Shown: positions 4,474-21,129 of the stretch, in pieces
Position numbering within the stretch: the first letter of the stretch is position 1
Layout of the letters: each line of letters begins with the position of its first letter
Origin: a virus
DNA: 21,129 bases
IMG/VR virus record: IMGVR_UViG_3300032322_000482
Span: 1-21,129 of that record
Direction: 5' to 3' (one strand)
Translations under genes and position numbers: made by a program
The notes under the pieces: model-generated
The model's database searches: none
What the model was told of the DNA's origin: nothing
What the model saw: the letters and a program-made list of their open reading frames with translations, nothing else

Positions 4474-5286
4474 ATGAAAAACCTAGATAATCTTAGATTA
4501 TATTTGAATGAAGCCATCGGCGTGAAATCCGGTATCAATGCAACTGGTATTGATACCGCAGTTAACAATATGACGCAATCGCATTCGCCTACCTTTGGTC
4601 AAAATAAAACGGAACATGCCGGTGCATTCGACCCTGAAGGTGGTGGACATGACCCAGAAGAGATTGCCAAAAAAAGTGGTATAGACATCGAAGAAGTGAA
4701 TAGACGTATCGTTATCGGTGTTAGAACGGAAATTGCTAAAGGTGTTACCGATAAAGCCAAAGCCCGTAAAATAGTAACAGATAAACTATTCAATAATATC
4801 GAAGCATATAGCAATTTGAGTTCACAGGAAAATAAAACCCCAGGTCAGAAAGGTGCCCCAGCCGGTGCTCCTCCCAGTGCAGCGGGTGCTCCGAAAAATA
4901 TGAATGAAGCTATTCTGGATAAGTTTATCAATATGGCTCGCCAGCCTATTCTGGAACAGAAAACAATTTATGATAATTTTTGCTACATGACCGAAGCTCA
5001 ACTAAAAGATTTCGGGATTAACCCCAACGAATCAGGAAGAGCATATACCGTTGTTTTCAAATTCCACGGTCAAACTAAAATTCTCAGTCTATTTTGGCCC
5101 GATACTCGCAGACCTACCAGGCAAGACATGCAAGCGTATGTCGAAGCATTGTATCCAATGGCAAAATTAATGTCATTCACAAAATACGAGAAGGGAGATC
5201 ACGGTTTAGGTCTTTTGTTAGTTCATAACAAGTCAGTAGGAAGAACCACTCACGCAAACACCAAAAATACTGACGACATGGGCTAG
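4474..5286 (+). CDS. Unassigned phage protein in the gp16 position, capsid-targeting-like N-terminus
   Basis: This is a 270-aa protein directly upstream of the large terminase. The start is set by TATAGGAG nine bases before the ATG. The slot is where T4 has gp16 (small terminase), but I see no gp16 similarity and it is much longer than T4 gp16 (164 aa). The N-terminus has Y-L-N-E-A at residues 10-14, like the capsid-targeting sequence of T4 internal proteins (MKTYQEFIAEA), which gp21 cuts after Glu. A second L/M-N-E-A lies near residue 147. Residues ~115-145 are an Ala/Pro/Gly-rich linker. The C-terminal ~125 residues look like a compact alpha/beta domain (YTVVFKFHGQTKILSLFWP). It could be a diverged small terminase or a head-packaged protein. 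It is cotranscribed with gp17, 8 bases apart. Confidence 0.7.
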   Translation: MKNLDNLRLYLNEAIGVKSGINATGIDTAVNNMTQSHSPTFGQNKTEHAGAFDPEGGGHDPEEIAKKSGIDIEEVNRRIVIGVRTEIAKGVTDKAKARKIVTDKLFNNIEAYSNLSSQENKTPGQKGAPAGAPPSAAGAPKNMNEAILDKFINMARQPILEQKTIYDNFCYMTEAQLKDFGINPNESGRAYTVVFKFHGQTKILSLFWPDTRRPTRQDMQAYVEALYPMAKLMSFTKYEKGDHGLGLLLVHNKSVGRTTHANTKNTDDMG

Positions 5287-5294
5287 AGGTTATT

Positions 5295-6971: not shown

Positions 6972-7003
6972 TTTCAAAATTTGACTTCTAAAGTTGGGTT
7001 TCG

Positions 7004-7010
7004 CTAAATA
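7004..7010 (+). promoter_or_regulatory. Late promoter CTAAATA before the sheath gene
   Basis: CTAAATA stands 28 bases before the gp18 ATG, with AGGAG at 7029-7033 as ribosome binding site. It should drive gp18 and gp19 together, as there is no promoter between those two. Confidence 0.75.
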
Positions 7011-7038
7011 AAAGTAGGATATATTTATAGGAGCTAAT

Positions 7039-8997: not shown

Positions 8998-9010
8998 GAG
9001 GTAAAAAACA

Positions 9011-9601
9011 ATGGCTCCAACTATTAATGATTTCAAATCCAAATTTACTGGTGGTGGTGTCCGTAATACGATGTTCCGTGTTACCATGATTTTCCCCCAA
9101 GCAGTAGTAGCATCCGTTTCTGATTTAGCTCAGGACAGCGAATTCTTGGTTAAGGCTTCTGCCATCCCTGGCAGCACCAACGCCAAGATTCCTATCTACT
9201 TCCGTGGTCGTCAACTCAAAGTCAATGGTGACAAAGAATTCGACGATTGGGCACTGACCGTTTATTCCGACAGAAACTATAAAATGCGTTCAGCATTTGA
9301 AAAGTGGGCTGAAATTGTCGGTCGTCACTCCGAAATCTATGGCGAGATTGAGTACGAAAATTACTTCTCTCGTGCATATGTAACTCAATTAGACAGAAAC
9401 CATGAACCTATTCGTAGCTATATGATGGAAGGTGTTTGGCCTATTTCTGTAGATTCAATTCCCGTTGCATTCGATTCGGTCAACCAAATCCAAGAATTTG
9501 GTGTTACACTAGCTGTTCAATACTGGGCCGCTGCCGATGGCGACATTGGTAATGTCAATAGCAATGGATTTAGCTCCGATCCTCGTCGGGTTTCTAGCTA
9601 A
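9011..9601 (+). CDS. 19: Tail tube protein
   Basis: This 196-aa protein (T4 gp19 is 163 aa) forms the inner tube through which DNA leaves the capsid. Recognisable family segments are the FRVTMIFP strand, KASAIPGSTNAKIPIYFRGR, the FDDWALTVYSD motif and the C-terminal GVWPISVDSIPVAFDS...EFGVTLAVQYW. The last of these matches T4 gp19 (GLWPTNVGELQLDWDS...EVTLALDYW) closely. A GAGG ribosome binding site sits at the end of gp18. The C-terminus extends ~20 residues beyond the family end. Its TAA stop is nested in a CTAAATA box and is followed by a strong terminator. Confidence 0.96.
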   Translation: MAPTINDFKSKFTGGGVRNTMFRVTMIFPQAVVASVSDLAQDSEFLVKASAIPGSTNAKIPIYFRGRQLKVNGDKEFDDWALTVYSDRNYKMRSAFEKWAEIVGRHSEIYGEIEYENYFSRAYVTQLDRNHEPIRSYMMEGVWPISVDSIPVAFDSVNQIQEFGVTLAVQYWAAADGDIGNVNSNGFSSDPRRVSS

Positions 9602-9604
9602 ATA
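9598..9604 (+). promoter_or_regulatory. Late-promoter-like CTAAATA directly before a terminator
   Basis: The box contains the gp19 stop codon. No gene starts between it and the terminator at 9629-9658, and gp20 has its own CTAAATA further on. If active it would make only a short RNA. It may instead be a chance match created by the GCTAAATAA ending. Confidence 0.45.
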
Positions 9605-9609
9605 ACCCG

Positions 9610-9658
9610 TTAGACCTCCTTACAACAACGGCCTCTTTATTAGAGGCCGCTTTTTTTT
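9610..9658 (+). ncRNA. Candidate ~49-nt late RNA carrying an anti-Shine-Dalgarno sequence
   Basis: A late promoter at 9598-9604 predicts a start near 9610. The RNA would have a single-stranded 5' part containing ACCTCCTTA (9614-9622) and then the terminator hairpin with a T8 tail. ACCUCCUUA equals the 3' tail of bacterial 16S rRNA and is complementary to the AGGAG sites used by this phage. The layout of a 5' seed plus intrinsic terminator is that of a bacterial small RNA. Transcription is inferred only. Confidence 0.35.
9629..9658 (+). terminator. Rho-independent terminator after gp19
   Basis: CGGCCTCT (9629-9636) and AGAGGCCG (9642-9649) form an 8-bp perfect stem around the loop TTATT, followed by C and eight T residues. 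It ends the gp18-gp19 unit three bases before the gp20 late promoter. Confidence 0.92.
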
Positions 9659-9660
9659 GC

Positions 9661-9667
9661 CTAAATA
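9661..9667 (+). promoter_or_regulatory. Late promoter CTAAATA before the portal gene
   Basis: CTAAATA begins three bases after the terminator T-tract and 33 bases before the gp20 ATG. It restarts transcription for the head genes. Confidence 0.75.
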
Positions 9668-9693
9668 AAGTTAGAAATAAGTCTGAGGGCAAT

Positions 9694-11412
9694 ATGTCAA
9701 AATTATTTGGATTTAGTATTAAGGAAGACCCACAGAATAAGCTGCTTAATAAAGCCAGTCCTGTTCCTGTGAATAATGATGATGGCGTTACTCCTATTGT
9801 GGGTGGCGGGCAGTATGGATATAGTCTAAATCTAGACCCAAGTATTAAGGGTGAATTTGATTTAATTCGCAGATATCGTGCCATGTCGCTCCAACCAGAA
9901 ATCGACCAAGCCATCGAAGATATCACTAATGAAGCTATTGTTAGTGATACTAATGATGTTCCCGTTCGTATCGATTTAACCAATATGCCGGTTGGTGAAG
10001 CTGTTAAAAATATCATACGCGGAGAATTCAAATATATCCTGGGATTGCTTGATTTTAACAATAAATGCCAAGACATCTTCAGAAAGTATTACGTCGATGG
10101 TAGATTATATTATCATAAAATTATCGACTTCGATAAACCGGAAAGAGGTGTTCTTGAGCTTAGATACATCGACCCGTTAAGTATTAAGCCCGTAAGAGAA
10201 ATCAAGAAGAAAGAAAAAGATAGTAGAACTGCGGGTTCCTATTCTAGTTTCGACAGCGGTAACTTCGGTAAATCTGCTGCACTAGAAGGTGAGGTATATG
10301 ACGAGTATTTCGTATACTCTCGTAATGGATTTGGTAATTATTATGGTCAAAATGGTGGTGGCCAGCAACAGACAAAACAAATCGACCCTAGAGGAAAAAA
10401 TACGGTAGCCGTTCCTATTGCTAAAGACGCTATCGCTTATGTAACTTCTGGTTTGGTTGATGGTAATAATGGCATGGTATTGTCTTGGTTGAATAAGGCA
10501 ATTAAACCATTAAATCAATTGAGAATTCTGGAAGATTCAACCGTAATCCACCGGGTAGTTCGTGCTCCTGAGCGTAGGGTCGTATACATCGATGTTAGTG
10601 GTATGCCTGGGCCTAAAGGTGAAGAGTTTATTCAAAAACAGATAAATCGCCTTAAAACAAAAATTACCTACGATTCTGTCACTGGTGAAATCAAGGACAA
10701 TAATCATTTCATGTCGATGTTGGAAGACATTTATCTTCCTAGATATGGAGGGAACAAGGGTACAGAAATTAAAACTCTACCTGGAAGTGATAGCCTTTCT
10801 AATATGGAATTCTTGCAATATTACCAAGATGCTCTCATGCGGGCATTGAACGTACCACTAACAAGACAGCAAGCGGCTCAAGGTATGTCCTTCGGGCGTT
10901 CAGGTGAAATTCTAAGAGATGAAGTTAAATTTGCCAAATTTGTGGCTAAAATGCGTAAGCGTTTTTCACAACTTTTTACAGACATTCTGAAAACTCAATT
11001 GATACTGAAAGGTGTGTGTTCTCCTAAAGAATTCGATGAATTGAAAGAACATATTCAGTATGACTACATCTACGATAACCAATATGCTCAATTGAAAAAA
11101 ATCGAAATTCAGAATGAAGAGCTGGCTTTGGCTGCAGCGGTAGAACCATATATCGGAAAATATTTCTCCACATACCAAGTTCGCCATAGCATCCTCGGCC
11201 AATCGGATGATGAGATTGCGGAAATCGATAAACAGATTCAATACGAAAGACAGGTTGGAATTATCCCATCTCCGCAACAGGACGCTGCTGTGGGTGGCGG
11301 CGGAGCAACTGCAAACCAAAATGCAGAAGCCGAACTAGAGCAACCAGCACCAGAAGGTGGTGCGGAAGCTCCTAACCCGGAAACGGATAACCCAGAAAGT
11401 CCACAAGTATAA
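9694..11412 (+). CDS. 20: Portal vertex protein
   Basis: This 572-aa protein corresponds to T4 gp20 (524 aa). Twelve copies form the ring at the unique capsid vertex that nucleates head assembly, binds the terminase and joins the neck. Family segments are visible: IRRYRAMSLQPEIDQAIEDITNEAI near the N-terminus, the helical stem region with RAPERRVVYIDVSGMPG, the EDIYLPRYGGNKGTEIKTLPG segment, and NVPLTRQQ with FGRSGEILRDEVKFAKFV. The last ~45 residues are rich in Gly, Ala, Glu and Pro and extend beyond the core. The ribosome binding site is GAGGG, six bases upstream. The TAA stop lies inside TATAAATA, which starts the next unit. Confidence 0.96.
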   Translation: MSKLFGFSIKEDPQNKLLNKASPVPVNNDDGVTPIVGGGQYGYSLNLDPSIKGEFDLIRRYRAMSLQPEIDQAIEDITNEAIVSDTNDVPVRIDLTNMPVGEAVKNIIRGEFKYILGLLDFNNKCQDIFRKYYVDGRLYYHKIIDFDKPERGVLELRYIDPLSIKPVREIKKKEKDSRTAGSYSSFDSGNFGKSAALEGEVYDEYFVYSRNGFGNYYGQNGGGQQQTKQIDPRGKNTVAVPIAKDAIAYVTSGLVDGNNGMVLSWLNKAIKPLNQLRILEDSTVIHRVVRAPERRVVYIDVSGMPGPKGEEFIQKQINRLKTKITYDSVTGEIKDNNHFMSMLEDIYLPRYGGNKGTEIKTLPGSDSLSNMEFLQYYQDALMRALNVPLTRQQAAQGMSFGRSGEILRDEVKFAKFVAKMRKRFSQLFTDILKTQLILKGVCSPKEFDELKEHIQYDYIYDNQYAQLKKIEIQNEELALAAAVEPYIGKYFSTYQVRHSILGQSDDEIAEIDKQIQYERQVGIIPSPQQDAAVGGGGATANQNAEAELEQPAPEGGAEAPNPETDNPESPQV

Positions 11413-11415
11413 ATA
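11408..11415 (+). promoter_or_regulatory. Perfect T4-type late promoter TATAAATA before gene 67
   Basis: TATAAATA is identical to the T4 late consensus and overlaps the portal stop codon. ATAGGAG and the ATG at 11439 follow. It should drive gp67 and gp21. Confidence 0.8.
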
Positions 11416-11438
11416 CTTTATATAGGAGATAAACAATC

Positions 11439-11600
11439 ATGGATGGCACTCAATTAGTTTCACTTATAGCCAGCGGCCAAACATCTCAGGCTATGGATGC
11501 ACTCAATAGCTTGATGTTAGACCGTATTAATAGCAGAATTGAAGAAGTTAAACCTGAAATCGCACAGCAACACTTCACTAGAGCGTTTGGAGAAGAGTAA
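11439..11600 (+). CDS. 67: Prohead core protein, gp67-like (53 aa)
   Basis: This short gene has a strong TATAGGAG ribosome binding site ten bases before its ATG, and its stop overlaps the gp21 start (TAATG), so translation is coupled. The product opens MDGTQLVSLIASGQ and continues through ALNSLMLDRI and EEVKPEIAQQHF. It parallels T4 gp67 (MEGLIEAIKSND...AARTIDLIKEEKIAIARNF) in order and spacing. In T4, gp67 is a prohead core component needed for correct head length and is destroyed by gp21. The long acidic C-terminal tail of T4 gp67 (80 aa) is absent. T4 gene 68, which would come next, is also missing. Assignment rests on position and short similarity. Confidence 0.85.
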   Translation: MDGTQLVSLIASGQTSQAMDALNSLMLDRINSRIEEVKPEIAQQHFTRAFGEE

Positions 11601-12250
11601 TGAAGTTAATAATCGAAGAAAACTTTGAAGATGTTCGGGTATTAACCGAATCGAAAACAACCGGAGAAAAAAGATTATTTATCGAAGGTATTTTTCTTCA
11701 ATTCGACATCGAAAATCGTAATGGTAGAATATACGAATCCAAAGTAGGCGACCCCGTTGTTCAGAAATACATTAAAGAGACTGTTGCTAAAAATAGAGCA
11801 GTGGGGGAACTTGGACACCCTGAGAACCCGAAGTTGAATGAAGAGCGAATTTCGCATAAAATCGTACAACTTAAAAAAGAAGGTAACAACTGGAAAGGTA
11901 AAGCACAATTATCTTCTACGCCTATGGGTCAAATTGCTAAGAATCTATATGAAGATGGTATTCAGTTGGGCGTATCCAGTCGCTGTCTGGGTAATATTCA
12001 AAATCGCAACGGTAAAAATTATGTAGCAGAAGGTCTGCGTATGATTACCGCCGCCGATATCGTTCTCGACCCAAGCGCACCTGATGCTTTTGTTAATGGA
12101 ATTATGGAAGGTAAAGAATGGTATGTAGAAGGTGATGTGTATTCAGAACAACAATTCGAACGAGCTAGGAAGCGTATCAACGAATCTGTTGATAGAGGAC
12201 AACTAGCACTGCAACAGCAAATTGAATTCGCTAGAGTATTCAGATACTAA
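11600..12250 (+). CDS. 21: Prohead core protease
   Basis: At 216 aa it matches T4 gp21 (212 aa), the serine protease with a herpesvirus-assemblin-like fold that cleaves the scaffold and capsid proteins during head maturation. The likely catalytic residues are His73 in GELGHP and Ser126 in LGVSSR, both in family-typical surroundings. The segment RNGRIYES near residue 40 is also conserved. An L-T-E/S site at residues 15-17 could be a self-cleavage point. It starts by TAATG overlap with gp67. Its stop codon is nested in the gp22 late promoter. Confidence 0.95.
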   Translation: MKLIIEENFEDVRVLTESKTTGEKRLFIEGIFLQFDIENRNGRIYESKVGDPVVQKYIKETVAKNRAVGELGHPENPKLNEERISHKIVQLKKEGNNWKGKAQLSSTPMGQIAKNLYEDGIQLGVSSRCLGNIQNRNGKNYVAEGLRMITAADIVLDPSAPDAFVNGIMEGKEWYVEGDVYSEQQFERARKRINESVDRGQLALQQQIEFARVFRY

Positions 12251-12253
12251 ATA
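12247..12253 (+). promoter_or_regulatory. Late promoter CTAAATA before the scaffold gene
   Basis: It contains the gp21 TAA stop. TAGGAG (12265-12270) and the gp22 ATG at 12281 follow. Confidence 0.75.
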
Positions 12254-12280
12254 TTATTGACAGATAGGAGAATCTATTTA

Positions 12281-13315
12281 ATGGCAAAACAACAGACTGG
12301 AAAAAGCGTAATAGACAACCCCCTGGATATGGGACCGAAAGATGGCGTTTCGCGTAGCACGACCGCTGTCAATAAAGGTGCAAAACCTGCTGAAGGTATC
12401 CCTCATCTCAGAAATCAGGGTTATGTCGATGGTGGTACAGAAAAGATTTCTGGCATTGAAGATTACAGTGTCAAGAGTCCTTCTGCTAAAGGTGCTACAC
12501 CCCCCGGTGGAGCAGGTAGAGGAGATGATACAAAAAATGCGGTTAAACCCGGTAATTCTCTCCGTCCCGAAGTCCTTCAACAGCTTCAAATCAAGAGAGA
12601 AGGTGTTGAAACGGCTACTTCGGAAGAGTTTGATTCGTTGGTCGAAGGTGACGACACCTTAACCGATGATTTCAAATTGCAAGCCAAGACTATTTTTGAG
12701 GCTGCTCTACAACAGCACCTTGAAATTGAAATTGCACGTCTTGAAGAAACCTACGCAGAAAGATTTGATCAAGCTGTTGGTGTTTTGGCCGAGCAAGTTG
12801 AATCATTCATGGATTATTCATCGGCTCAGTGGCTGGAAGAAAATCGTCTGGCTGTTGAAGATGGAGTTCGCTCACAATTGAATGAATCCTTCATGGCTGG
12901 ACTGCACAACCTGTTCCGTGAACACTATGTTGCTGTACCGGAAGAGAAGTTTGAAGTTTTTGAAGCTATGGTTGCCCGTTTGGATGACATGGAAGACAAA
13001 CTCAACGAGCAAATCGAAGCCAACGTAAACTTAAACGAAGCTCTGTTACAAGCGCATCGTGAAATCTTGGTTCAAGAAGAAGCCAGAGGGCTGACTCAAG
13101 TTCAAGTAGATAAATTGCAACGACTTTCAGAAAGTATTTCATACGCAGGAGATGCTGATAAATTCTCTCGGCAACTTCAAACCCTAAAAGAAAGCTTTAT
13201 TGAAGGTTCTAGTGCTCCCACCACACAAAATTACATCACTGAAGATGTTGTTCAGCGTGGTCCGGAATATGGCACACGGATGCAATCATATCTTAGTGCA
13301 TTAGGTGTTCAATAA
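12281..13315 (+). CDS. 22: Prohead core scaffold protein
   Basis: This 344-aa protein sits between the protease and the capsid gene, the place of T4 gp22 (269 aa), the main internal scaffold. The ATG at 12281 with TAGGAG is preferred over an upstream TTG at 12257. The first ~105 residues are Gly/Pro/Lys-rich and probably disordered, an extension relative to T4. The remainder is highly charged and helical with strong coiled-coil character (residues ~130-310). Several L/I-x-E sites (LVEG, LNES, LNEA, FIEG, ITED) are the type cut by gp21, consistent with destruction of the core before packaging. The C-terminus (YGTRMQSYLSAL) is family-like. Confidence 0.92.
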   Translation: MAKQQTGKSVIDNPLDMGPKDGVSRSTTAVNKGAKPAEGIPHLRNQGYVDGGTEKISGIEDYSVKSPSAKGATPPGGAGRGDDTKNAVKPGNSLRPEVLQQLQIKREGVETATSEEFDSLVEGDDTLTDDFKLQAKTIFEAALQQHLEIEIARLEETYAERFDQAVGVLAEQVESFMDYSSAQWLEENRLAVEDGVRSQLNESFMAGLHNLFREHYVAVPEEKFEVFEAMVARLDDMEDKLNEQIEANVNLNEALLQAHREILVQEEARGLTQVQVDKLQRLSESISYAGDADKFSRQLQTLKESFIEGSSAPTTQNYITEDVVQRGPEYGTRMQSYLSALGVQ

Positions 13316-13338
13316 ACATTGTCGTCGTAAGCATTTGT

Positions 13339-13345
13339 CTAAATA
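13339..13345 (+). promoter_or_regulatory. Late promoter CTAAATA before the major capsid gene
   Basis: CTAAATA lies in the 56-base gap before gp23, with TTAGGAG at 13354-13360 and the ATG at 13372. Confidence 0.75.
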
Positions 13346-13371
13346 ATTTTAGTTTAGGAGTTAATTATCCA

Positions 13372-14814
13372 ATGTACGAAAATAATCTTACAACTTCCCA
13401 ATTGCTGGAGAAATGGGAACCGCTTTTAGAGCATAGTGACCTTCCCCCCATCCCTCAGCGTAACCTGCGCCATCGTAAGGCTGTTACCGCTTGTCTGCTG
13501 GAAAACCAAGAAATTCATAACGCTAGTGGTCGTGGAGCTGGTCTGTTGACCGAAGCTAGCATCAACGTTACCGGCGACACCGGTTTCAGTAATGCGGCTG
13601 CTAATGCTGGTCCTAGTGCCGGTTTCGACCCCATCCTGGTTTCAATGGTTCGTCGTACTATGCCCAACCTGATTGCATACGACCTCGTGGGTACTATCCC
13701 CATGCGTGGTCCCTACGGTGCAATCTTCGCTAAGCGTGCCCGTTATGTTGACGGTGATCTCGATATGGCAGGCCCCGAAGCTTTCTACAATGAAGCAGAC
13801 CCCACGTTCTCTGGTGGTTTCGGTACTTATACCGGTACTGGCACCAACGCAGAACAAAACCCCGGCCTGCTTAACGATGCTACTGGTGGTGGTACAACCG
13901 CTGGTGCTATGGACCCCGTTCTTGCTTCTTCGACTGCTTTCCAAGCTAACCGCAATGGTTTGACCGGTGCTAATATGGCCACCTCCAAGCTGGAAGTTCT
14001 CGGTAGCACCAACAACGAATTCCGCGAAATGGCTAACACGTTCGAAAAAGTCACCGTCCACGCTGGTGGTCGTGGTTTGCGTGCTAGCTGGTCGATTGAA
14101 ATGGCACAAGACCTTAAGGCTATTCACGGTCTCGATGCTGAAGCTGAATTGACCAACGATTTGGCTACTCAAATCATCACCGACATCAACCGTGAACTCG
14201 TTCGTGTTATCTATCACACTGCTAAGCCCGGTGCTCAAAACAACGTTGCTAACGCTGGTGTTTATGACTTGAACATTGACTCCAACGGTCGTTGGTCGAA
14301 AGAAAGAATGCAAGGTATGCTGTTCCAGCTCCACCGGGATGCTAGCGCAATTGCTCAACAAACTCGTAGAGGGCGTGGTAATATCGTTATCTGTTCCGCT
14401 GACGTTGCATCTGCTTTCCGTATTGCTGGTATTCTCGACTACGCTCCCGAATACAGTGCAAACCTCGATATCGATGATACCGATGACCTGTTTGCTGGTA
14501 CGATTGATAAAGGCCGTAGCTCCTTCCGCGTTTTCATCGACCCGTATTCTGCCAACTCGAGCAATACTCAGTATTTCGTTGTTGGATACAAGGGCCGCGA
14601 TTTCGGCGATTGTGGATTGTACTACTGTCCTTACATCGGTCTGCAATTGATGTCTGTTAAAGACCCCGCTACCTTCCAGCCTTCAATCGGGTTCAAGACT
14701 CGTTATGGTCTGGTTGCTTCTCCCTTCGCTGAAGGTGCAACTGCTGGTGGTGGTCGGATTACCTTCGGTACTAACACATTCTACCGTCGAGTTAGAATCG
14801 CCAACCTCAACTAG
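13372..14814 (+). CDS. 23: Major capsid protein
   Basis: This 480-aa protein corresponds to T4 gp23 (521 aa), the HK97-fold hexamer subunit of the head. Diagnostic segments include FDPILVSMVRRTMPNLIAYDLVG, PMRGPYGAIFAKRARY, EMAQDLKAIHGLDAEAELTNDLATQI, and the C-terminal GYKGRDFGDCGLYYCPYIGLQL with FKTRYGL. The prohead protease site is visible as L-L-T-E/A, giving cleavage after Glu61 and a mature protein of 419 residues. Codon use looks more selective than in neighbouring genes, with many C-ending codons (CCC, AAC, GAC), as expected for the most abundant product. A bidirectional terminator follows the stop. Confidence 0.98.
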   Translation: MYENNLTTSQLLEKWEPLLEHSDLPPIPQRNLRHRKAVTACLLENQEIHNASGRGAGLLTEASINVTGDTGFSNAAANAGPSAGFDPILVSMVRRTMPNLIAYDLVGTIPMRGPYGAIFAKRARYVDGDLDMAGPEAFYNEADPTFSGGFGTYTGTGTNAEQNPGLLNDATGGGTTAGAMDPVLASSTAFQANRNGLTGANMATSKLEVLGSTNNEFREMANTFEKVTVHAGGRGLRASWSIEMAQDLKAIHGLDAEAELTNDLATQIITDINRELVRVIYHTAKPGAQNNVANAGVYDLNIDSNGRWSKERMQGMLFQLHRDASAIAQQTRRGRGNIVICSADVASAFRIAGILDYAPEYSANLDIDDTDDLFAGTIDKGRSSFRVFIDPYSANSSNTQYFVVGYKGRDFGDCGLYYCPYIGLQLMSVKDPATFQPSIGFKTRYGLVASPFAEGATAGGGRITFGTNTFYRRVRIANLN

Positions 14815-14844
14815 TACAAGCCTTCGGGCATTGTCAAATATCGC

Positions 14845-14870
14845 AAAAGCCACCCTTTCGGGTGGCTTTT
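14845..14870. terminator. Bidirectional intrinsic terminator between convergent genes
   Basis: AAAAGCCACCC (14845-14855) and GGGTGGCTTTT (14860-14870) form an 11-bp perfect stem around TTTC. The A4 and T4 ends give a U-tail in either direction. It serves gp23 on the plus strand and the gp19-like gene on the minus strand. Confidence 0.92.
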
Positions 14871-14880
14871 CGTATATTGG

Positions 14881-15507
14881 TTAAGTCGATACGGTGTTCG
14901 AATCCGTTTCTTTGGCGGCTAAACCGCTTCGAATATCAAAATATGTATACTCGAAAGCAACGCCCGCCGATAAGAAACCTGGATTAGTGATGCGAGTATC
15001 AAAATCTGCACTACCTAAAGACACAGGAAAAGCGTCGTGATAAGTGATGCTGGCGACTGGGTTGTAATTACTTGATAGCACTTGTAAAGTAATCTCAGCA
15101 GTCTCACTATAAATCGTATCAAACTTGCTAACTCTTCTTCCGGTTGGTGGTTTCTTAACAATTGATTCACCAATCTTCGAGACTTGCTGGATTTCATCTA
15201 CGGATACCGCACCCGTCATATATCTCATCCAGTCATAAACCTGGATATAATTCTTAAGATTCTCGTCAACAAGAAATTCAACAACAAGGTTCTCAAAATT
15301 TAACTCATCTGCAACATGCGGAATTTTGTTTAGTCTGGTGGATTGCTGCGCCGAGCCGCATGATACCACTGGAATGTTAGCCCTAACGCAGAATAGAGGG
15401 ACGGCCATCACTTTTTTACAAATTAATAAAAAGCCATGGGGCATTAAAAAATTTCTATTTTCCAATGCTTGCAAATTGTTATTAGATGTAGTCGATTCAA
15501 ATGTCAT
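14881..15507 (-). CDS. gp19-like tail tube-family structural protein
   Basis: This 208-aa minus-strand protein converges on gp23. It follows the pattern of a tube-fold family frequent in T4-like phages: NFLMPHGFLLICKKV, then PLFCVRANIPVVS, a LNFENLVVEFLVDENLKNYIQVYDWMRYM core, and a C-terminal half with ITLQVLSSNYNPVASITYHDAFPVSLGSADFD ending in FEYTYFDIR. The last part mirrors the gp19 pattern of a W/F-P-x-S turn followed by a beta strand. It is probably a virion tube or tube-terminator protein. By cyanophage gene order this slot is often gp3 (tail completion), so that is the main alternative. The ribosome binding site is weak (GAGGG ~8 bases upstream). A minus-strand AATAAATA box lies 25 bases before the ATG. 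Confidence 0.75.
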   Translation of the reverse strand: MTFESTTSNNNLQALENRNFLMPHGFLLICKKVMAVPLFCVRANIPVVSCGSAQQSTRLNKIPHVADELNFENLVVEFLVDENLKNYIQVYDWMRYMTGAVSVDEIQQVSKIGESIVKKPPTGRRVSKFDTIYSETAEITLQVLSSNYNPVASITYHDAFPVSLGSADFDTRITNPGFLSAGVAFEYTYFDIRSGLAAKETDSNTVST

Positions 15508-15532
15508 AGGAATATCCCTCGTATTTCATGAA

Positions 15533-15540
15533 TATTTATT
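15533..15540 (-). promoter_or_regulatory. Minus-strand late promoter AATAAATA for the gp19-like gene
   Basis: Read on the minus strand, AATAAATA fits NATAAATA and contains the TAA stop of the HNH gene. The next ATG (15507) is 25 bases on. Confidence 0.6.
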
Positions 15541-16192
15541 CATCTCGAACAGGTGTATAATCTCCAAAATACTTAACTTCGGCTTCTCTACGAACTTTTA
15601 CGGCTTCTTCTTTAGTTGTGAAATATCCTAGATTTTCCTGTTTACCATCTACCGTGATGCGAGCACGCCATTTCTTACAATCTTCACGCCAACCTACGCC
15701 AATCTCACCAGAAGTGTTATTTTTCATCATTTTAGCTTTCTGCTTATTCTGCCGTGGCGTAATAAGTTGTAAATTACTCAGAAGATTGTTCGATGGATTA
15801 CTTTTTTTATGGTCTACGACCATTCCTTCTGGAATTGGACCATGTTCCAATGCCCAGATGAAACAATGTAGATATCTTTCATCGTTAGAACCTTCTTCGA
15901 CGTATCTGACGTAATACCCATTACTATCTGAGTACCATGACCCAGCTTCAATAATTTCCTTTTCATACTTCGGCTCAGAACCTTCTGGAGCTTTGTCACG
16001 TTCGAATTTTCTACCAGAAGTTGTAGCACCATTTTTCAAATCGCTGTTCCTTACAATTCCAGTACATTCAAACTCGCTACAATAACATAAACAAGCCGAA
16101 CATCCGTAACCACCAATCGTATGATGGTTTTCCAATACTGTCAGTGTGCCAAAAGTTGCACCAATTTCTATAAGCTTTCTAGGTCTACCCAT
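15536..16192 (-). CDS. Free-standing HNH-AP2 homing endonuclease
   Basis: This 218-aa protein has three parts. Residues ~8-60 (GATFGTLTVLE...C-S-A-C-L-C-Y-C...SDLKNGATTSG) match the degenerate zinc-ribbon-like N-terminal domain common in phage HNH proteins. Residues ~105-150 are the HNH nuclease: H109 in LHCFIWA, D127-H128 in VVDH, N136/N140 and the closing PRQN. Residues ~160-212 (SGEIGVGWREDCKKWRARI...LGYFTTKEEAV) are an AP2 DNA-binding domain. Such genes spread by cutting alleles that lack them. The start is MGRPRK with AGGAG 12 bases upstream, reached from an overlapping sigma-70/late promoter. The last TAA forms part of the promoter of the downstream gene. It appears intact. Confidence 0.93.
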   Translation of the reverse strand: MGRPRKLIEIGATFGTLTVLENHHTIGGYGCSACLCYCSEFECTGIVRNSDLKNGATTSGRKFERDKAPEGSEPKYEKEIIEAGSWYSDSNGYYVRYVEEGSNDERYLHCFIWALEHGPIPEGMVVDHKKSNPSNNLLSNLQLITPRQNKQKAKMMKNNTSGEIGVGWREDCKKWRARITVDGKQENLGYFTTKEEAVKVRREAEVKYFGDYTPVRDE

Positions 16193-16195
16193 TTT

Positions 16196-16203
16196 TATAA
16201 ATA
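16196..16203 (+). promoter_or_regulatory. Plus-strand TATAAATA late promoter pointing at a terminator
   Basis: TATAAATA lies just outside the HNH start codon but faces the opposite way. No plus-strand gene begins before the terminator 20 bases on, so any product would be a ~50-nt RNA antisense to the HNH leader. Confidence 0.45.
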
Positions 16204-16222
16204 CTCCTGATTGGTTTTGTAC

Positions 16223-16261
16223 TGGGGAGAAGTGTTTTCGGCACTCTCCCCATTTTTATTT
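16223..16261 (+). terminator. Intrinsic terminator on the plus strand, antisense to the HNH leader
   Basis: TGGGGAGA (16223-16230) pairs with TCTCCCCA (16245-16252). After a bulged A the stem extends by GTG/CAC around the loop TTTTCGG. The tail is TTTTTATTT. On the minus strand there is no T-tract after the stem, so it terminates rightward transcription only. On the minus strand the same stem forms a hairpin in the HNH 5' leader. Confidence 0.8.
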
Positions 16262-16289
16262 AGTATATCACGCGGCTGAACCTTGTCAA
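16257..16289 (-). promoter_or_regulatory. Overlapping sigma-70 and late promoter for the HNH gene
   Basis: On the minus strand TTGACA (16289-16284) is followed after 16 bases by TATACT (16267-16262). The late box CTAAATA (16263-16257) shares its first two bases with that -10, reading TATACTAAATA. Host polymerase and gp55 polymerase could both start here. Confidence 0.7.
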
Positions 16290-16293
16290 GACC

Positions 16294-16647
16294 CTAAATG
16301 TCATATGACGGGCCTTTTCCGAAGAGTAACTGTAGTTGTCTGTATGCGTTCTGGAATGTGTCGTCAGCCATTTGCTTATCGCTGGTTGATAAATATCTGT
16401 ATCTGAATTTCGAGTGACCTGTGTATTGGCCCCAGTATTCGTGAAGGTCTTCACATAATATAGAATAGCCGGGTTTAATATATCTGGGAGTTAATCGAAA
16501 CTTCTCGCTCTTACCACCACACGGAATAAATACACGCACACGGTAATATCTGATACCGGCCTTTGTATCTTCGGTATACACCATTACATACGGACTATTT
16601 TCATCATTTTGATTTAAGAGTAAACACCGAAAATCTACAATATCCAT
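16294..16647 (-). CDS. Hypothetical 117-aa protein divergent from uvsW
   Basis: I do not recognise this protein. The ATG at 16647 (MDIVDFRCLLLNQ) is chosen because a minus-strand CTAAATA ends 21 bases upstream; a longer reading would run back into uvsW. The product is soluble and mixed in charge, with several predicted beta strands (YVMVYTED, RYYRVRVFIP, KFRYRYLS) and a C-terminal helix (ADDTFQNAYRQLQLLF). No signal peptide or membrane segment is visible, and its two cysteines form no metal motif. The ribosome binding site is weak. The gene stops just before the HNH promoter. Its placement in the late, minus-strand island suggests a minor virion or assembly role, but that is only context. Confidence 0.7.
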   Translation of the reverse strand: MDIVDFRCLLLNQNDENSPYVMVYTEDTKAGIRYYRVRVFIPCGGKSEKFRLTPRYIKPGYSILCEDLHEYWGQYTGHSKFRYRYLSTSDKQMADDTFQNAYRQLQLLFGKGPSYDI

Positions 16648-16667
16648 GGGTTGCACCAACTCTGTTG

Positions 16668-16683
16668 TATTTAGTCCTAAATA
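16668..16683. promoter_or_regulatory. Back-to-back divergent late promoters
   Basis: TATTTAG (16668-16674) and CTAAATA (16677-16683) form a perfect inverted repeat separated by two bases. The left box reads leftward to the 117-aa gene and the right box reads rightward to uvsW (ATG 16710). Confidence 0.75.
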
Positions 16684-16709
16684 GTATTGAAATATTTGAG
16701 ATGTTAAAA

Positions 16710-18152
16710 ATGACTGATATCTTAATCCGGAAGCACAATGAAGCATATATTAATGTAGAAGCTTCATGCGAGATTCTGAATGAATTGAGTCAGTATTTTT
16801 CCTTCAAGACGGAAAATGCTCAATTTATGAAAAAACATCGTAAAGGGTGGGATGGTATCACCCGATTGTTCAATAGACGGAACAATACAATATATGCCGG
16901 TCTTCTCTTCAGGATTTGTAACTGGGCCGAAAAGTGCGGCTATACTTATGAATTCGTAGACAATGAATTCTATGGTATGCCATTCGAAGAAGATGAGATG
17001 ATTACCGAATATGGCTGTAAATTCTACATGAAGAAATTAGCTAGCCATATCACACCTAGAAGCTATCAGCTTAGCTCTGTATATGAAGCATTGCGATATA
17101 ATCGCAAAACAATCATATCAGCAACCGCTAGTGGCAAGAGCTTTATCATTTATACGATTGTTAGGTATCATGCTCAGTATGATAGAAAGATTCTTATTGT
17201 AGTTCCGCGTGTAGACCTCGTTAACCAGTTAACCAACCAGTTTGTGGGATATGGGTGGGATGAGAAACATATCCATAAAGTTTCGGGAGGATTCGAGAAG
17301 GATACCGACAGATTAGTGACCATCTCCACATGGCAATCTATCACCGAACAGAATGCTTCCTGGTATGACCAATTTGATTGTATTATGTGTGATGAAACTC
17401 ACCAGGCTAAATCCAAAGAACTCAAGAAAGTATTCTCAAGCTGTAGAGAAGCAAAATATAGATACGGATTCACTGCCACTCTAAGTAATGGTTCAAAGCT
17501 GGATGCCATTGTAATCGAAGGGTTGTTTGGTCCAGTCTACCGAGCAGTGAATACTGCCGATATGATTGCTGGTGGTAATGCCTCACAACTCGCCATTCAA
17601 GTGCAAGTGATGAGACATTCCAAACCCGTAAGTATCACGCAATACGAGGATGAAGTCAAATACTTATGTAATTGTGAGCCTAGGAATAATTACTTAATCA
17701 ATCTCGTAAAGAATCTTCCTGGTAACACGATTGTGTTATTCGACAGAATCGATGAACATGCCATTCCATTCTTTCATCGATTGAATAATGAAACTACTAC
17801 CCCATGTCACCTGATTCATGGTAAAATTGCAAATCGAGATAAGATTTATGAGATAATTAGAAAATCCCATAACAATATTCTAATAGCTTCTTATGGGTGT
17901 TGTTCCACTGGTATCGACGTACCTAATGTCGATAATATGGTATTTGCTTCCTCCGGTAAGTCATCTATCAAAGTGATGCAATCCATTGGTAGATCACTTC
18001 GCCTAGCAGAAGGTAAAGAAATAGCAACAGTCTATGATATTGCTGATCATATTAATGGTGGAAGTAATTACACATTCCAACACTTACACAAAAGATTGGA
18101 ATTGTATAACAATGAAGACTTACCATACGAGATAGAAGATATCGATTTATAG
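16710..18152 (+). CDS. uvsW: UvsW-type recombination/branch-migration helicase
   Basis: This 480-aa superfamily 2 helicase matches T4 UvsW, which unwinds R-loops and branched DNA and shifts replication from origins to recombination. The N-terminal domain (YINVEASCEILNELSQYFSF...KGWDGITRLF) aligns with the T4 start. Walker A is ATASGKS at 138-144, the DEAD-box variant is DETH at 228-231, motif III is TAT near 255, and motif VI is QSIGRSLR near the C-terminus. The longer frame from TTG 16563 is rejected because it overlaps the divergent gene and its promoter. ATG 16701 is an alternative start. The gene is under a late promoter, as in T4, where uvsW is also late. Confidence 0.95.
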   Translation: MTDILIRKHNEAYINVEASCEILNELSQYFSFKTENAQFMKKHRKGWDGITRLFNRRNNTIYAGLLFRICNWAEKCGYTYEFVDNEFYGMPFEEDEMITEYGCKFYMKKLASHITPRSYQLSSVYEALRYNRKTIISATASGKSFIIYTIVRYHAQYDRKILIVVPRVDLVNQLTNQFVGYGWDEKHIHKVSGGFEKDTDRLVTISTWQSITEQNASWYDQFDCIMCDETHQAKSKELKKVFSSCREAKYRYGFTATLSNGSKLDAIVIEGLFGPVYRAVNTADMIAGGNASQLAIQVQVMRHSKPVSITQYEDEVKYLCNCEPRNNYLINLVKNLPGNTIVLFDRIDEHAIPFFHRLNNETTTPCHLIHGKIANRDKIYEIIRKSHNNILIASYGCCSTGIDVPNVDNMVFASSGKSSIKVMQSIGRSLRLAEGKEIATVYDIADHINGGSNYTFQHLHKRLELYNNEDLPYEIEDIDL

Positions 18153-18176
18153 CTTCTAAAACCTTGTACAAGTTCT

Positions 18177-18184
18177 TATAAATA
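18177..18184 (+). promoter_or_regulatory. TATAAATA late promoter after uvsW
   Basis: An exact T4 late consensus lies 25 bases after the uvsW stop. It reads into the 330-base region that holds inverted repeats, two short ORFs and a possible pseudoknot. Confidence 0.65.
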
Positions 18185-18224
18185 ACCATTCATTCTCACA
18201 CTTATAGTATTTCATCTTATCTGC

Positions 18225-18297
18225 TGCTTGTCAAGGGGTTTTACAAATATTGTAACAAATCTTTACAAAGCTATCTTAGAAAGAGACTTGACAAGCA
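18225..18297. repeat. 11-bp inverted repeat with outward-facing TTGACA boxes
   Basis: TGCTTGTCAAG (18225-18235) and CTTGACAAGCA (18287-18297) are perfect reverse complements 51 bases apart. Each holds a TTGACA pointing outward. Candidate -10s are weak: AATACT at 17 bases leftward and TAAGAT at 16 bases rightward. The centre contains TTACAA-ATA-TTGTAA (18241-18255), a smaller operator-like palindrome. It may be a divergent promoter/operator, a structured RNA or an origin-like site. Confidence 0.6.
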
Positions 18298-18313
18298 AGC
18301 TATAGGAGCTAAG

Positions 18314-18346
18314 ATGCACAGTATACCACCAGTCCTTCCAGGATGA
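18314..18346 (+). CDS. Candidate 10-codon leader peptide
   Basis: The ATG is preceded by TATAGGAGCTAAG, almost the same initiation region as gp18 (TATAGGAGCTAAT). It encodes MHSIPPVLPG and stops at TGA. Three prolines, including a Pro-Pro pair, could slow ribosomes. The stop overlaps the ATG of a second short frame (ATGA) and lies within the possible pseudoknot. It could also be the remnant of a decayed gene, and the peptide may not be functional. Confidence 0.4.
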   Translation: MHSIPPVLPG

Positions 18347-18383
18347 CCAGGAAGAAGGGTATAACATCAAACTGGTGTCATCC
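18327..18383 (+). ncRNA. Possible H-type pseudoknot in the leader RNA
   Basis: CACCAGT (18327-18333) pairs with ACTGGTG (18371-18377), and GGATGA (18341-18346) pairs with TCATCC (18378-18383). The order is that of an H-type pseudoknot with directly abutting stems. The loops are 7 and 24 nt. A competing hairpin CTTCC-A-GG/CC-A-GGAAG also exists, so a switch between folds is conceivable. No known RNA family is recognised. Confidence 0.4.
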
Positions 18384-18459
18384 AGCACAGAAGCACATAG
18401 GAGGGTTTCTAGGGGATATTGTAAGGGGTTTTGCTCCATCGCACGAGAACGCTAAATAG
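18343..18459 (+). CDS. Candidate 38-aa basic peptide coupled to the leader ORF
   Basis: This frame starts at the ATG that overlaps the leader stop (ATGA), the usual form of translational coupling. It encodes 38 residues beginning MTRKKGITSNWC and ending APSHENAK, with a short hydrophobic part (GGFLGDIVRGF). It has no ribosome binding site of its own beyond GG. The stop TAG is inside CTAAATAG, the promoter of the next gene. I do not recognise it, and it may be chance. Confidence 0.35.
   Translation: MTRKKGITSNWCHPAQKHIGGFLGDIVRGFAPSHENAK
18452..18458 (+). promoter_or_regulatory. Late promoter CTAAATA before the acidic protein gene
   Basis: CTAAATA lies 24 bases before the ATG at 18483. Only a poor ribosome binding site (TTGGA) is present in the short leader. 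Confidence 0.7.
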
Positions 18460-18482
18460 TAACGAAAGTATTGGATAAAAAA

Positions 18483-18950
18483 ATGGCTCAACAGTATTCG
18501 AATTATCACCATTACCTCGTGGAAGCTGCTACCGCTATTCTTTCCCACGATCAGTATAGATATGTTAGCGAAAAGAAAGAATGCGACAAAGCTGAGAAGT
18601 ACGAGAAAGACGCCAAAGAAGGCGAAGAAGGAGAAGATGAAGAGGAAGATGAGAAAGCAGCTAAGCTGCCTTTCCCCGTTAAAGAATCCTACTTCGCTAA
18701 TCTGATCGGTGTTCTGGCCGAAGGCGAGTATATTGTCACCAAGGAAGATTTGCTTGCACTGGCTGAAGCAGCTCTTGCTATGATTGAAGAAGGTGAAGGG
18801 TACACTCCCGATGCCGACGCTAAAGCTCGTATCAAAGACTACTACACCCGCAAAGAACCCAAGAAAGAAAAGCTTTCTGGTAGCCGTGAAGGTAGAAACC
18901 TCATGTTCGGTAAAGAGACTCCTAAGACTCATTGGGAGACTTACAAGTAA
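18483..18950 (+). CDS. Acidic hypothetical protein with capsid-targeting-like N-terminus
   Basis: This 155-aa protein is not recognised. The ATG at 18483 is preferred to a TTG at 18471. Its start includes Y-H-H-Y-L-V-E-A (residues 8-15), which fits the Y-x-x-F/Y-I/L-x-E-A pattern of T4 internal-protein capsid-targeting sequences (MKTYQEFIAEA). gp21 cleavage after Glu14 is therefore predicted. Residues ~38-64 are a run of Glu, Asp and Lys (EGEEGEDEEEDE). A helical Ala/Leu/Glu region follows (KEDLLALAEAALAMIEEGEG), and the C-terminus is basic (RKEPKKEKLSGSREGR). The late promoter and the motif together suggest a head-packaged or prohead core protein, which is an inference. Codons are well chosen (many C-ending), hinting at high expression. 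Confidence 0.75.
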   Translation: MAQQYSNYHHYLVEAATAILSHDQYRYVSEKKECDKAEKYEKDAKEGEEGEDEEEDEKAAKLPFPVKESYFANLIGVLAEGEYIVTKEDLLALAEAALAMIEEGEGYTPDADAKARIKDYYTRKEPKKEKLSGSREGRNLMFGKETPKTHWETYK

Positions 18951-18976
18951 GTAGATTGCAAACCTTAATACATATT

Positions 18977-19017
18977 TGGGTCGTATGGTTGACATACGAC
19001 CCATCTTGTTTTATAAT
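18977..19017 (+). promoter_or_regulatory. Consensus sigma-70 promoter with -35 in a hairpin tip
   Basis: TTGACA (18989-18994), 17 bases, then TATAAT (19012-19017): a perfect match. TGGGTCGTATG (18977-18987) and CATACGACCCA (18993-19003) form an 11-bp perfect stem with loop GTTGA, so the -35 starts in the loop. The stem could end the upstream transcript, serve as an operator, or both. Confidence 0.9.
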
Positions 19018-19047
19018 GGTTTCAGTAATTTACTGAGGTTATTTTTA

Positions 19048-20046
19048 ATGATTAAATTTGTGATGATTTCTCTGGCCGTATTGACTACGGCTGGAGCTGC
19101 TAGTGCAACTACCAAACCCCCTACTCCTACTCCTGCGGCTAATGCTAACGCTGCCAACAACACCAACGTCAATGCTGGTGGTGGCACTGGGCTCGGTCTT
19201 GGTGTCGGTATCGGTAAGGGTGGCCAAGGTGGTACTGGTATCGGTAAAGGCGGTACTGGTATCGGTAAAGGTGGTAATGCTGAGTCGAATGTCAACACCA
19301 TCACTAAGACAAACGTTAATGCTGCTGGTGGTCAAGGTGGTAAGGCTGGCGCAAGCGCTTTCGGTGGTGGTGCAAACACTGTCGTAACTCCCACTCAAGA
19401 CCAGAATCTTCAGCAAACACTGACCAATAGTGTTGGTAAGTTGTTGGACACCGTGAATTCTGCAGCAACCGCGAATCCGGTTCAGACTTTTACACCTAGC
19501 AATACTCTCAGCAACGTTGCTGGTGATGTTGCGAATACGTTCAATCCTACCAATGACATTGCAAACCTTGTTGGCGACGTTGCATCAAGCGCTAAAGCAC
19601 TTCAGACGTTCAACCCGACGAATACAAACAATGCTCAGTTTTCTAACAATCCGGTGAATACATTCAAACCTACTACGATTGTTCTACCGGACCCCGCCGA
19701 GGTAAATCTACCTGCTGCGATCGCCCCTGCGTATGAGATTACTGTTGATGGTAATTCCCTCAAAATCCCCTATGTCGGTCAGCAAAGCTATGGCTTTACG
19801 TTTGCATATTTTGGGTTTACCAAGAACAAGGTAGCCGATAGACTCCCCGAAGGTGCTAGAGATAGCATTCAGCGATTCGAGAGTGTTCTGTTGATTAACC
19901 GCGTTCTACAACTGGCTCCCCAGTTGCCCCAAGAGCAATCAGATGATTTGATCAATACAGCATTTGTCACGTTAAAGCGTGAACTGCTCCGTCAGGATGT
20001 AAATCGTGGTGTAATTGTAGACCCTAAGACGATGCGGGCCTACTAA
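19048..20046 (+). CDS. Secreted glycine-rich phage protein
   Basis: The ATG at 19048 follows TGAGGT and the consensus promoter; the GTG at 18976 lies upstream of the promoter and is rejected. The 332-aa product opens with a signal peptide: basic start MIKF, hydrophobic core VMISLAVLTTAGA and an ASA cleavage site after residue 20. A low-complexity part follows with PTPTP, Asn-rich stretches and IGKGG(Q/T)G repeats (19210-19275). Then come four TF-x-P-[ST]-N/T repeats with GDVA. The C-terminal ~100 residues (YEITVDGNSLKIPY... to PKTMRAY) look folded, with a helical RDSIQRFESVLLINRVLQ segment. No family is recognised. Early host-type transcription and export suggest action on the host envelope, such as exclusion of other phages or surface remodelling, but this is inference. 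It contains one HIP1 site. Confidence 0.8.
   Translation: MIKFVMISLAVLTTAGAASATTKPPTPTPAANANAANNTNVNAGGGTGLGLGVGIGKGGQGGTGIGKGGTGIGKGGNAESNVNTITKTNVNAAGGQGGKAGASAFGGGANTVVTPTQDQNLQQTLTNSVGKLLDTVNSAATANPVQTFTPSNTLSNVAGDVANTFNPTNDIANLVGDVASSAKALQTFNPTNTNNAQFSNNPVNTFKPTTIVLPDPAEVNLPAAIAPAYEITVDGNSLKIPYVGQQSYGFTFAYFGFTKNKVADRLPEGARDSIQRFESVLLINRVLQLAPQLPQEQSDDLINTAFVTLKRELLRQDVNRGVIVDPKTMRAY
19717..19724. repeat. HIP1 octamer GCGATCGC
   Basis: The palindrome GCGATCGC is highly over-represented in many cyanobacterial genomes. A single copy is weak evidence for a cyanobacterial host or donor. Confidence 0.6.
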
Positions 20047-20065
20047 TAACAACTTAAGCGAATAT

Positions 20066-20106
20066 TGTAGGCTAGTGGTTGACACTAGTCTACATTGTGC
20101 TATAAT
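20066..20106 (+). promoter_or_regulatory. Sigma-70 promoter of gene 55 with the same hairpin layout
   Basis: TTGACA (20079-20084), 16 bases, then TATAAT (20101-20106). TGTAGGCTAGTG (20066-20077) and CACTAGTCTACA (20083-20094) form a 12-bp stem with one G-T pair and loop GTTGA. The stem sequence differs from the one at 18977 but the geometry and loop are the same. Confidence 0.9.
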
Positions 20107-20132
20107 AAAATAAGTTGTTAGAGGAGAAAGAC

Positions 20133-20759
20133 ATGGCTACTAAGACAAATCAACATTATGTTGATAATACCAAATTCAGGAATGCGTTGATTGATTATAG
20201 AAATTCATATCTTGATGCTATACGCGAGCTTGTTAAATATCTGGAAGATGAGTATTTTAACGTACCAGTTGAAGATGTTAAGATTCGTAAGCGCAAGGTT
20301 GAAGTATTTTTTGCAGATGAGACAGTTTCATTTAATACTAAGACTGAAGAGTTCTCACATATTACCAGTAAGTTCAAGAAGCCCAGGATGAGCAACTATA
20401 TTGGTAAATGCTTCATGCTAATCGCGGGCAACATTGCTAATCTACCGTGCTTTCGCGGATATCCCTTTATCGATGATATGATTTCCGATGCTCTGGAAAA
20501 TATGGTAATGTACGCACATAATTATGATGATACGGTCTCGCCTTATGCATTCTCGTATTTTAATATTTATGCGTATCGATGCTTTTTCCGTAAAATCACG
20601 GCAGAGAAAAAGCTAATTACAATGTGGAATCGATATGTTGATTCGGCTAGCTGGGAAACTTTCTTTGAAGGTAATTATGATTCTGTAGATGATATTCCTG
20701 GATTGGAGCAGATTAGAGTGATGTCATCCCCCGACAAGAAACTTAGGAAATTTGCGTAA
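20133..20759 (+). CDS. 55: Late-transcription sigma factor gp55
   Basis: At 208 aa (T4 gp55 is 185) it directs host RNA polymerase to late promoters. The opening YVDNTKFRNALIDYRN parallels T4 YVNNKELLQAIIDWK. The core IGKCFMLIAGNIANLPCFRGYP...DMISDALENMVMYAHNYDDTVSPYAFSYFNIYAYRCFFRKITAEKK matches the T4 sigma region 2-like segment. Residues ~35-85 are an insertion relative to T4. The C-terminus is basic (SSPDKKLRKFA) and lacks the hydrophobic-acidic end (SLDFLYE) with which T4 gp55 binds the sliding clamp. The ATG at 20133 follows AGAGGAG. Its consensus host promoter fits expression before the late genes. Confidence 0.93.
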   Translation: MATKTNQHYVDNTKFRNALIDYRNSYLDAIRELVKYLEDEYFNVPVEDVKIRKRKVEVFFADETVSFNTKTEEFSHITSKFKKPRMSNYIGKCFMLIAGNIANLPCFRGYPFIDDMISDALENMVMYAHNYDDTVSPYAFSYFNIYAYRCFFRKITAEKKLITMWNRYVDSASWETFFEGNYDSVDDIPGLEQIRVMSSPDKKLRKFA

Positions 20760-20763
20760 CTTC

Positions 20764-20770
20764 CTAAATA
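20764..20770 (+). promoter_or_regulatory. Late promoter CTAAATA after gene 55
   Basis: CTAAATA lies four bases after the gp55 stop and 27 bases before a GTG start at 20798. Confidence 0.7.
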
Positions 20771-20797
20771 TAATAGAATAGAGCTTGTAGGCTAATT

Positions 20798-21129
20798 GTG
20801 TTTAGAGAACAATTTTTACAACTATTGGAGCAGTTGAATGGACGTCAAGAAAGTGGCGGCTTGAATAACCCAAGCCGTCTACAGCCTCATATTGCTCAGG
20901 GTGCAAGAGAATTACAACGAGCTAGTACAAACGGAAATACAAATGATTCTGGTCCCTTCGGTGCCAATTATTTGACTAGCAGGAGTCCTAAGAATAATAC
21001 TTCCCTTATTTCCCGTGATAGAGCAGAAAACAGCCAACAACCCGATTATAGCACACCCGGTTCCGTCGATCCAAGGGTTGGTAGTGGGCATGATAAGGCA
21101 CTAAATCCGGTCGTAGGCCAAATTGCGGC
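20798..21129 (+). CDS. Hypothetical late protein, cut by the window end
   Basis: The frame opens at GTG 20798, with TGTAGG about seven bases upstream and a late promoter before that. It runs open to the last base (110 residues visible). The start is MFREQFLQLLEQLNGRQ, a short amphipathic helix containing an L-L-E motif. The rest is rich in Ser, Asn, Gly and Pro (GANYLTSRSPKNN, DYSTPGSVDPRVGSG) and probably disordered. No family is recognised. The late promoter suggests a structural or assembly role. The ATG at 20838 is in another frame and soon meets a stop. Confidence 0.65.
   Translation, partial: MFREQFLQLLEQLNGRQESGGLNNPSRLQPHIAQGARELQRASTNGNTNDSGPFGANYLTSRSPKNNTSLISRDRAENSQQPDYSTPGSVDPRVGSGHDKALNPVVGQIA

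Follow-up and report, generated by a model that had tools for sequence, protein, structure and literature searches.

The window (the whole stretch of DNA analyzed here, a 21.1-kb record) is part of the genome of a T4-like, cyanophage-type virus. It carries genes for terminase, sheath, portal, protease, major capsid, an HNH endonuclease (in opposite orientation), the UvsW helicase, orfA, orfB, and gp55. Its nearest named relatives are cyanophages, its capsid protein being 54% identical to that of Synechococcus phage S-B68. Identity between the gp55 of the window and cyanophage gp55 proteins is about 30%, and the window protein has an insertion of ∼45 aa, N-terminal to the conserved YIGKC motif. 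The orfB product combines an N-terminal signal-peptide-like stretch (judged by eye) with Gly/Asn-rich repeats; PHROGs, Pfam, NCBIfam, and phage records yielded no match to it. A search of contigs for relatives of uvsW and of the window gp55 returned none that were useful.

Other features of the fragment lie outside the region considered below. A minus-strand gene (14881-15507) resembles one on contig L005 (2539-3153); the L005 copy is co-directional and 3′ of gp23, and the window copy is inverted (by eye). On the minus strand at 16219-16289, an 11/12 promoter (TTGACA-16-TATACT) lies 5′ of the HNH endonuclease gene and runs immediately into a hairpin that is terminator-like on the plus strand (GGGGAGAAGTG...CACTCTCCCC-ATTTTTATTT). 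The 330-nt uvsW-orfA gap contains opposite-strand TTGACA boxes (18228-18294; TTGTCAAG at 18228 and CTTGACAA at 18287), with a 10/12 promoter match at each.

Two promoters, P1 and P2, match the sigma-70 consensus (TTGACA, 16-18 nt, TATAAT) at 12 of 12 positions; they lie 1.09 kb apart and are the only such matches within positions 5000-21129 (16 kb; Table 1). Neither has the T4-type late promoter TATAAATA: their boxes are TATAATGG and TATAATAA, accompanied by a −35. Both are situated between co-directional genes, P1 preceding orfB, an orphan secreted-type ORF, and P2 preceding gp55. A first-pass annotation had drawn over each TTGACA a hairpin with a GTTGA loop, and we found both hairpins exactly as placed, with the TATAAT spacings that it gave (17 bases at P1, 16 at P2). 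Its stem lengths of 11 and 12 bp also hold, with the qualification that the second stem includes one G-T pair, its only departure from Watson-Crick pairing, which becomes G-U when read as sense RNA. The annotation had further described the stem sequences as compensatory, as is borne out by the 7 of 11 aligned pairs that differ between P1 and P2, all 7 of which still pair. The hairpin lies 26 nt (P1) or 19 to 20 nt (P2) past a stop codon; TATAAT and then an SD sequence follow close behind, and the next start codon is 38 to 44 nt 3′ of the hairpins.

Table 1. Features of the orfA-gp55 region (positions are those of the window)
Feature	Position	Strand	Description
orfA	18483..18950	+	155 aa, acidic, no family; gene 5′ of P1
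Possible P1 outer stem	18950..19034	+	Arms 18950-18964 / 19018-19034; bulged, some G-U
P1 hairpin	18977..19003	+	TGGGTCGTATG-GTTGA-CATACGACCCA; 11 Watson-Crick pairs
P1 arms and loop	18977-18987 / 18993-19003; loop 18988-18992	+	GTTGA loop
P1 −35	18989..18994	+	TTGACA; first four bases in loop, last two in 3′ arm
P1 T-rich stretch	19004..19012	+	TCTTGTTTT; 3′ of stem, within spacer; candidate terminator U-tract
P1 −10	19012..19017	+	TATAAT; spacer 17 nt
orfB	19048..20046	+	332 aa; gene 3′ of P1; no relatives found
P2 inverted repeat, left arm	20047..20056	+	TAACAACTTA; begins directly 3′ of orfB stop
Weak antisense promoter-like site at P2	20064..20092	-	TAGACT-17-TACAAT, 9/12; register of cyanophage gp55-region antisense promoter
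P2 hairpin	20066..20094	+	TGTAGGCTAGTG-GTTGA-CACTAGTCTACA; 12 pairs including one G-T
P2 arms and loop	20066-20077 / 20083-20094; loop 20078-20082	+	GTTGA loop
P2 −35	20079..20084	+	TTGACA
P2 −10	20101..20106	+	TATAAT; spacer 16 nt; TG at extended −10 position
P2 inverted repeat, right arm	20111..20120	+	TAAGTTGTTA; gp55 leader start, right before SD GAGGAG
gp55	20133..20759	+	Late-transcription sigma factor; PHROG 234, E 1.1e-30

As RNA, the P1 and P2 elements fold at −19.5 and −18.6 kcal/mol (z of −5.8 and −4.3), with none of 200 shuffles as good, and both thus provide the stable, G+C-containing transcript hairpin of an intrinsic terminator. As single-stranded DNA they fold at −12.3 (P1) and −9.3 kcal/mol (P2), again better than all shuffles. 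Stem length alone is not rare, since stems of ≥11 bp with G-T allowed occur about three times per shuffled window, and the shared GTTGA loop is partly automatic, because TTGA makes up four of its five bases and TG is required opposite the CA of the −35. That in both perfect promoters a long stem has its center at an identical position within the −35 is nevertheless not due to chance. We judge it highly improbable that the elements are a by-product, either as diverged duplicates or as dyads without function: the two intergenic regions do have in common TGGTTGACA, and TTGT 5′ of the −10, and long stems of the G-T-allowing kind do arise by chance in this sequence, but pairing is retained at every differing position and the folds beat every shuffle.

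As a motif, the GTTGA loop does not extend more widely. The part of this virus's genome that could be covered, namely the 21.1-kb fragment plus about 1.5 kb, yielded no further copy; the promoter pattern had no matches in contigs L003 and L005 or in the full record L004/L289, which is 99.8% identical to the window and stops short of the P1/P2 region. Three exact patterns were used to seek GTTGA-loop elements in viral contigs; of the 32 other exact ATG/GTG matches, none had a stem of >6 bp at GTTGA (range, 3 to 6 bp). The exact P1 core is absent from the 84,980 genomes searched, the P1 and P2 intergenic regions gave only chance-level nucleotide matches in a phage collection, and Rfam gave no match. 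The fixed geometry on which the first-pass annotation had based its case for selection is therefore not general, given these short stems and a hairpin register that varies across phages.

Strong hairpins across the −35, by contrast, do recur, and more often than expected by chance. From viral contigs we assembled 686 nonredundant promoters (≥11/12); the sources were T4-like contigs, records of cyanophages, and contigs picked up with a promoter pattern. These promoters were compared with permutations in which left arms were joined to right arms of different promoters. With relatedness among contigs controlled only by removal of copies >80% identical, hairpins of ≥8 bp on the −35 numbered 17, compared with 2.95 expected (standard deviation [SD], 2.1; maximum, 10 in 40 permutations), and very strong ones numbered 10, compared with 0.35 expected (maximum, 2), among the 686 promoters. 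A T-tract together with a stem spanning the −35 was seen in 14 cases, P1 included, compared with 3.2 expected (SD, 1.6; maximum, 9 in 60 permutations). The profile of hairpin positions peaks at the −35 and again about 20 to 25 nt upstream; this second peak represents separate terminators that abut promoters. At four of the loci (L214, L137, L032, and L054), the element is a plain terminator in which TTGACA falls within or next to the loop and the spacer holds the T-tract (terminator score d, +21 to +30): L214 is a textbook example, GAGGGTG-CTTGA-CACCCTC-TTTTTTTATGCTATAGT, and the L054 element lies directly 3′ of a gp23-sized gene. In other phages, roughly half of the strong hairpins at the −35 are without a T-tract, so termination does not cover the whole class.

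Strong folds (≤−14 kcal/mol) around the −35 are biased toward the sense RNA (20 sense versus 11 antisense; control, 7.5 versus 5.7). Such a bias is not expected from extrusion of DNA, and it bears on the proposal that P1 and P2 are cruciform-sensitive promoters, in which extrusion under negative supercoiling would hide or expose the −35 and activity would follow DNA topology. A stem of 11 to 12 bp closed by a 5-nt loop is of a size that can extrude, and the DNA folds given above are compatible with extrusion, but we consider this the least probable of the alternatives weighed here.

Hairpins without T-tracts would also suit a DNA operator, with a dimeric regulator binding a palindrome over the −35 and blocking the promoter. 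The dyad center on the −35 is a classical repressor position, and cyanophage gp55 promoters often carry TTGACA-N4-TGTCAA dyads. In these relatives, however, an overlapping antisense promoter accounts for the dyads. TTGTCAAG occurs 5′ of cyanophage gp55 in 65 of 87 regions, compared with 1.7% of random windows. An initial view that TTGTCAAG was an operator of unknown kind was dropped, since the sequence, read on the other strand, forms the −35 of the antisense promoter. An antisense match of ≥10/12 is present in 55 of 61 nonredundant cyanophage gp55 regions (loci L209-L288, L204-L208, and L322-L324; 2.9% of random windows) and one of ≥11/12 in 45 of 61 (0.9%). This promoter is mostly TTGACA-17-TANAAT, is intercalated with the sense gp55 promoter ∼100 nt upstream of gp55, and was also found in P-HM2, Syn30, and S-CAM9; it was absent from a Sinorhizobium phage and a T-even phage used for comparison, and a global k-mer excess of TTGTCAAG was not seen. 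Judging from its placement, it could act by promoter interference or produce antisense RNA over the gene upstream. Covariation of the arms at the relatives' gp55 promoters is modest (within-class permutation P = 0.005 without the window) and partly expected because the promoters face each other.

The antisense promoter does not explain the GTTGA hairpins, since it reaches only 9/12 at P2 and has no counterpart at P1. Nor do P1 and P2 share an arm sequence that a common regulator might read: of their 11 aligned pairs, 4 are common, 2 of which are forced by the −35. The operator dyad offered in the first-pass annotation is weakened by this dissimilarity, and we regard it as distinctly unlikely.

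Beyond the inner hairpins, both regions can form outer stems that span from the upstream stop codon to just before the next SD. At P2 this is a perfect 10-bp repeat with arms 54 nt apart (left-flank shuffle P of about 0.009); at P1 the stem runs from the orfA stop codon to the orfB SD (P of about 0.05). Statistical support for these stems is modest. They raise the possibility that the spacer, when read through, folds as outer stem plus GTTGA hairpin for RNA processing or translation and not for termination; such a structure might bring the upstream stop codon beside the next ribosome site or supply double-stranded RNA for cleavage. The case is weak at P1, and the inner hairpin alone supplies most of the folding energy. 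As an account of both elements we find it possible, if unlikely; at P2, an RNA structure that stabilizes the 3′ end, serves in processing, or couples translation offers a reasonable alternative.

Our preferred explanation, which we hold at slightly better than even, is that P1 and P2 each combine an intrinsic terminator and a host-type sigma-70 promoter in the same ∼40 bp. RNA polymerase ending the upstream gene would transcribe a hairpin into its RNA (stem of 11 or 12 bp, GTTGA loop) and may stop within the T-rich stretch that follows it; as DNA, the element would present TTGACA, running from the loop into the 3′ arm, with TATAAT 16 to 17 bp on, for initiation toward orfB or gp55. The stems would then differ because any pairing sequence suffices for a stem, with TTGACA fixing the center. 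Placement just past stop codons, unlike stems with one center, the excess in other phages, and the sense-RNA bias all argue for such a fused element. It is also the best supported of the three readings offered in the first-pass annotation, favored by the stop-codon placement, the P1 T-rich stretch, the phage excess, and the P-HM2 promoter described below, and disfavored by the weak T-tract of P2.

The fit is moderate at P1 and weaker at P2, owing to this poor T-tract. A simple scan finds P1 terminator-like, and TCTTGTTTT passes as a U-tract; by an approximate d score, P1 is borderline (+0.1), a little below the gp19 and gp23 terminators of the same fragment (+5 and +13). At P2 the tract is TTGTGC (d of −14), and terminator scans miss it. 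What was observed are the sequences, their folds, the gene context, and the excess of such arrangements elsewhere; termination, promoter firing, and any advantage of the arrangement, such as compactness, insulation, or quick reuse of terminated polymerase at the adjoining promoter, are inferred.

Bacterial RNA polymerase can stay on the DNA after termination at a hairpin and restart at a nearby promoter (PMC11347151), a behavior that, by analogy, would suit fused elements of this kind. It seems rather unlikely, on present evidence, that the phage has gone further and that the elements are a selected device in which polymerase stops in the spacer U-tract and restarts there, tying gp55 expression to transcription of the preceding gene. 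Such a handover would mean that terminator and promoter strength are coupled via one set of bases. If fused elements are real, phage annotation should seek terminator and promoter as one element, and the arrangement would offer a natural test bed for reinitiation following hairpin termination. They would also bear on how the onset of the late sigma factor is timed in cyanophages, which are without T4-type middle promoters (PMC5780444). Searches of the open literature on fused terminator-promoters and on cyanophage gp55 promoters gave no direct precedent.

Like bacterial and phage intrinsic terminators, the elements have a stable hairpin past a stop codon and, at P1, a T-rich stretch; they differ in that the loop and 3′ arm double as the −35 of the next promoter and in that P2 lacks a good U-tract. 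The early promoters of phage N4, which are recognized as DNA hairpins by the phage's own virion polymerase, have a stem of 5 to 7 bp and a 3-nt loop. There, too, a hairpin forms part of the promoter, but P1 and P2 have stems of 11 to 12 bp, a 5-nt loop, and consensus host-type boxes, and the gene content of the window is T4-like.

Parallels are also found at gp55 itself. In Prochlorococcus phage P-HM2 (GU075905), the promoter of the same gene has a hairpin-enclosed TTGACA followed by a −10 (CCCCGC-TTGACA-GCAGGG-TTTTTTTG-TTATAAAAT); it is a clear case of a plain terminator over the −35 and differs from the window elements in having an evident T7 tract, a stem that is shorter and in another register, and no GTTGA loop. 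The Kyanoviridae S-PRM1, S-CAM9, S-RIM12, and S-SM1 keep TTGTCAAG and the intercalated antisense promoter, in contrast to the window, which has only the weak antisense site; like the window, they have a sigma-70 promoter directly 5′ of gp55, and in S-PRM1 and S-CAM9 an 8-bp stem surrounds its −35.
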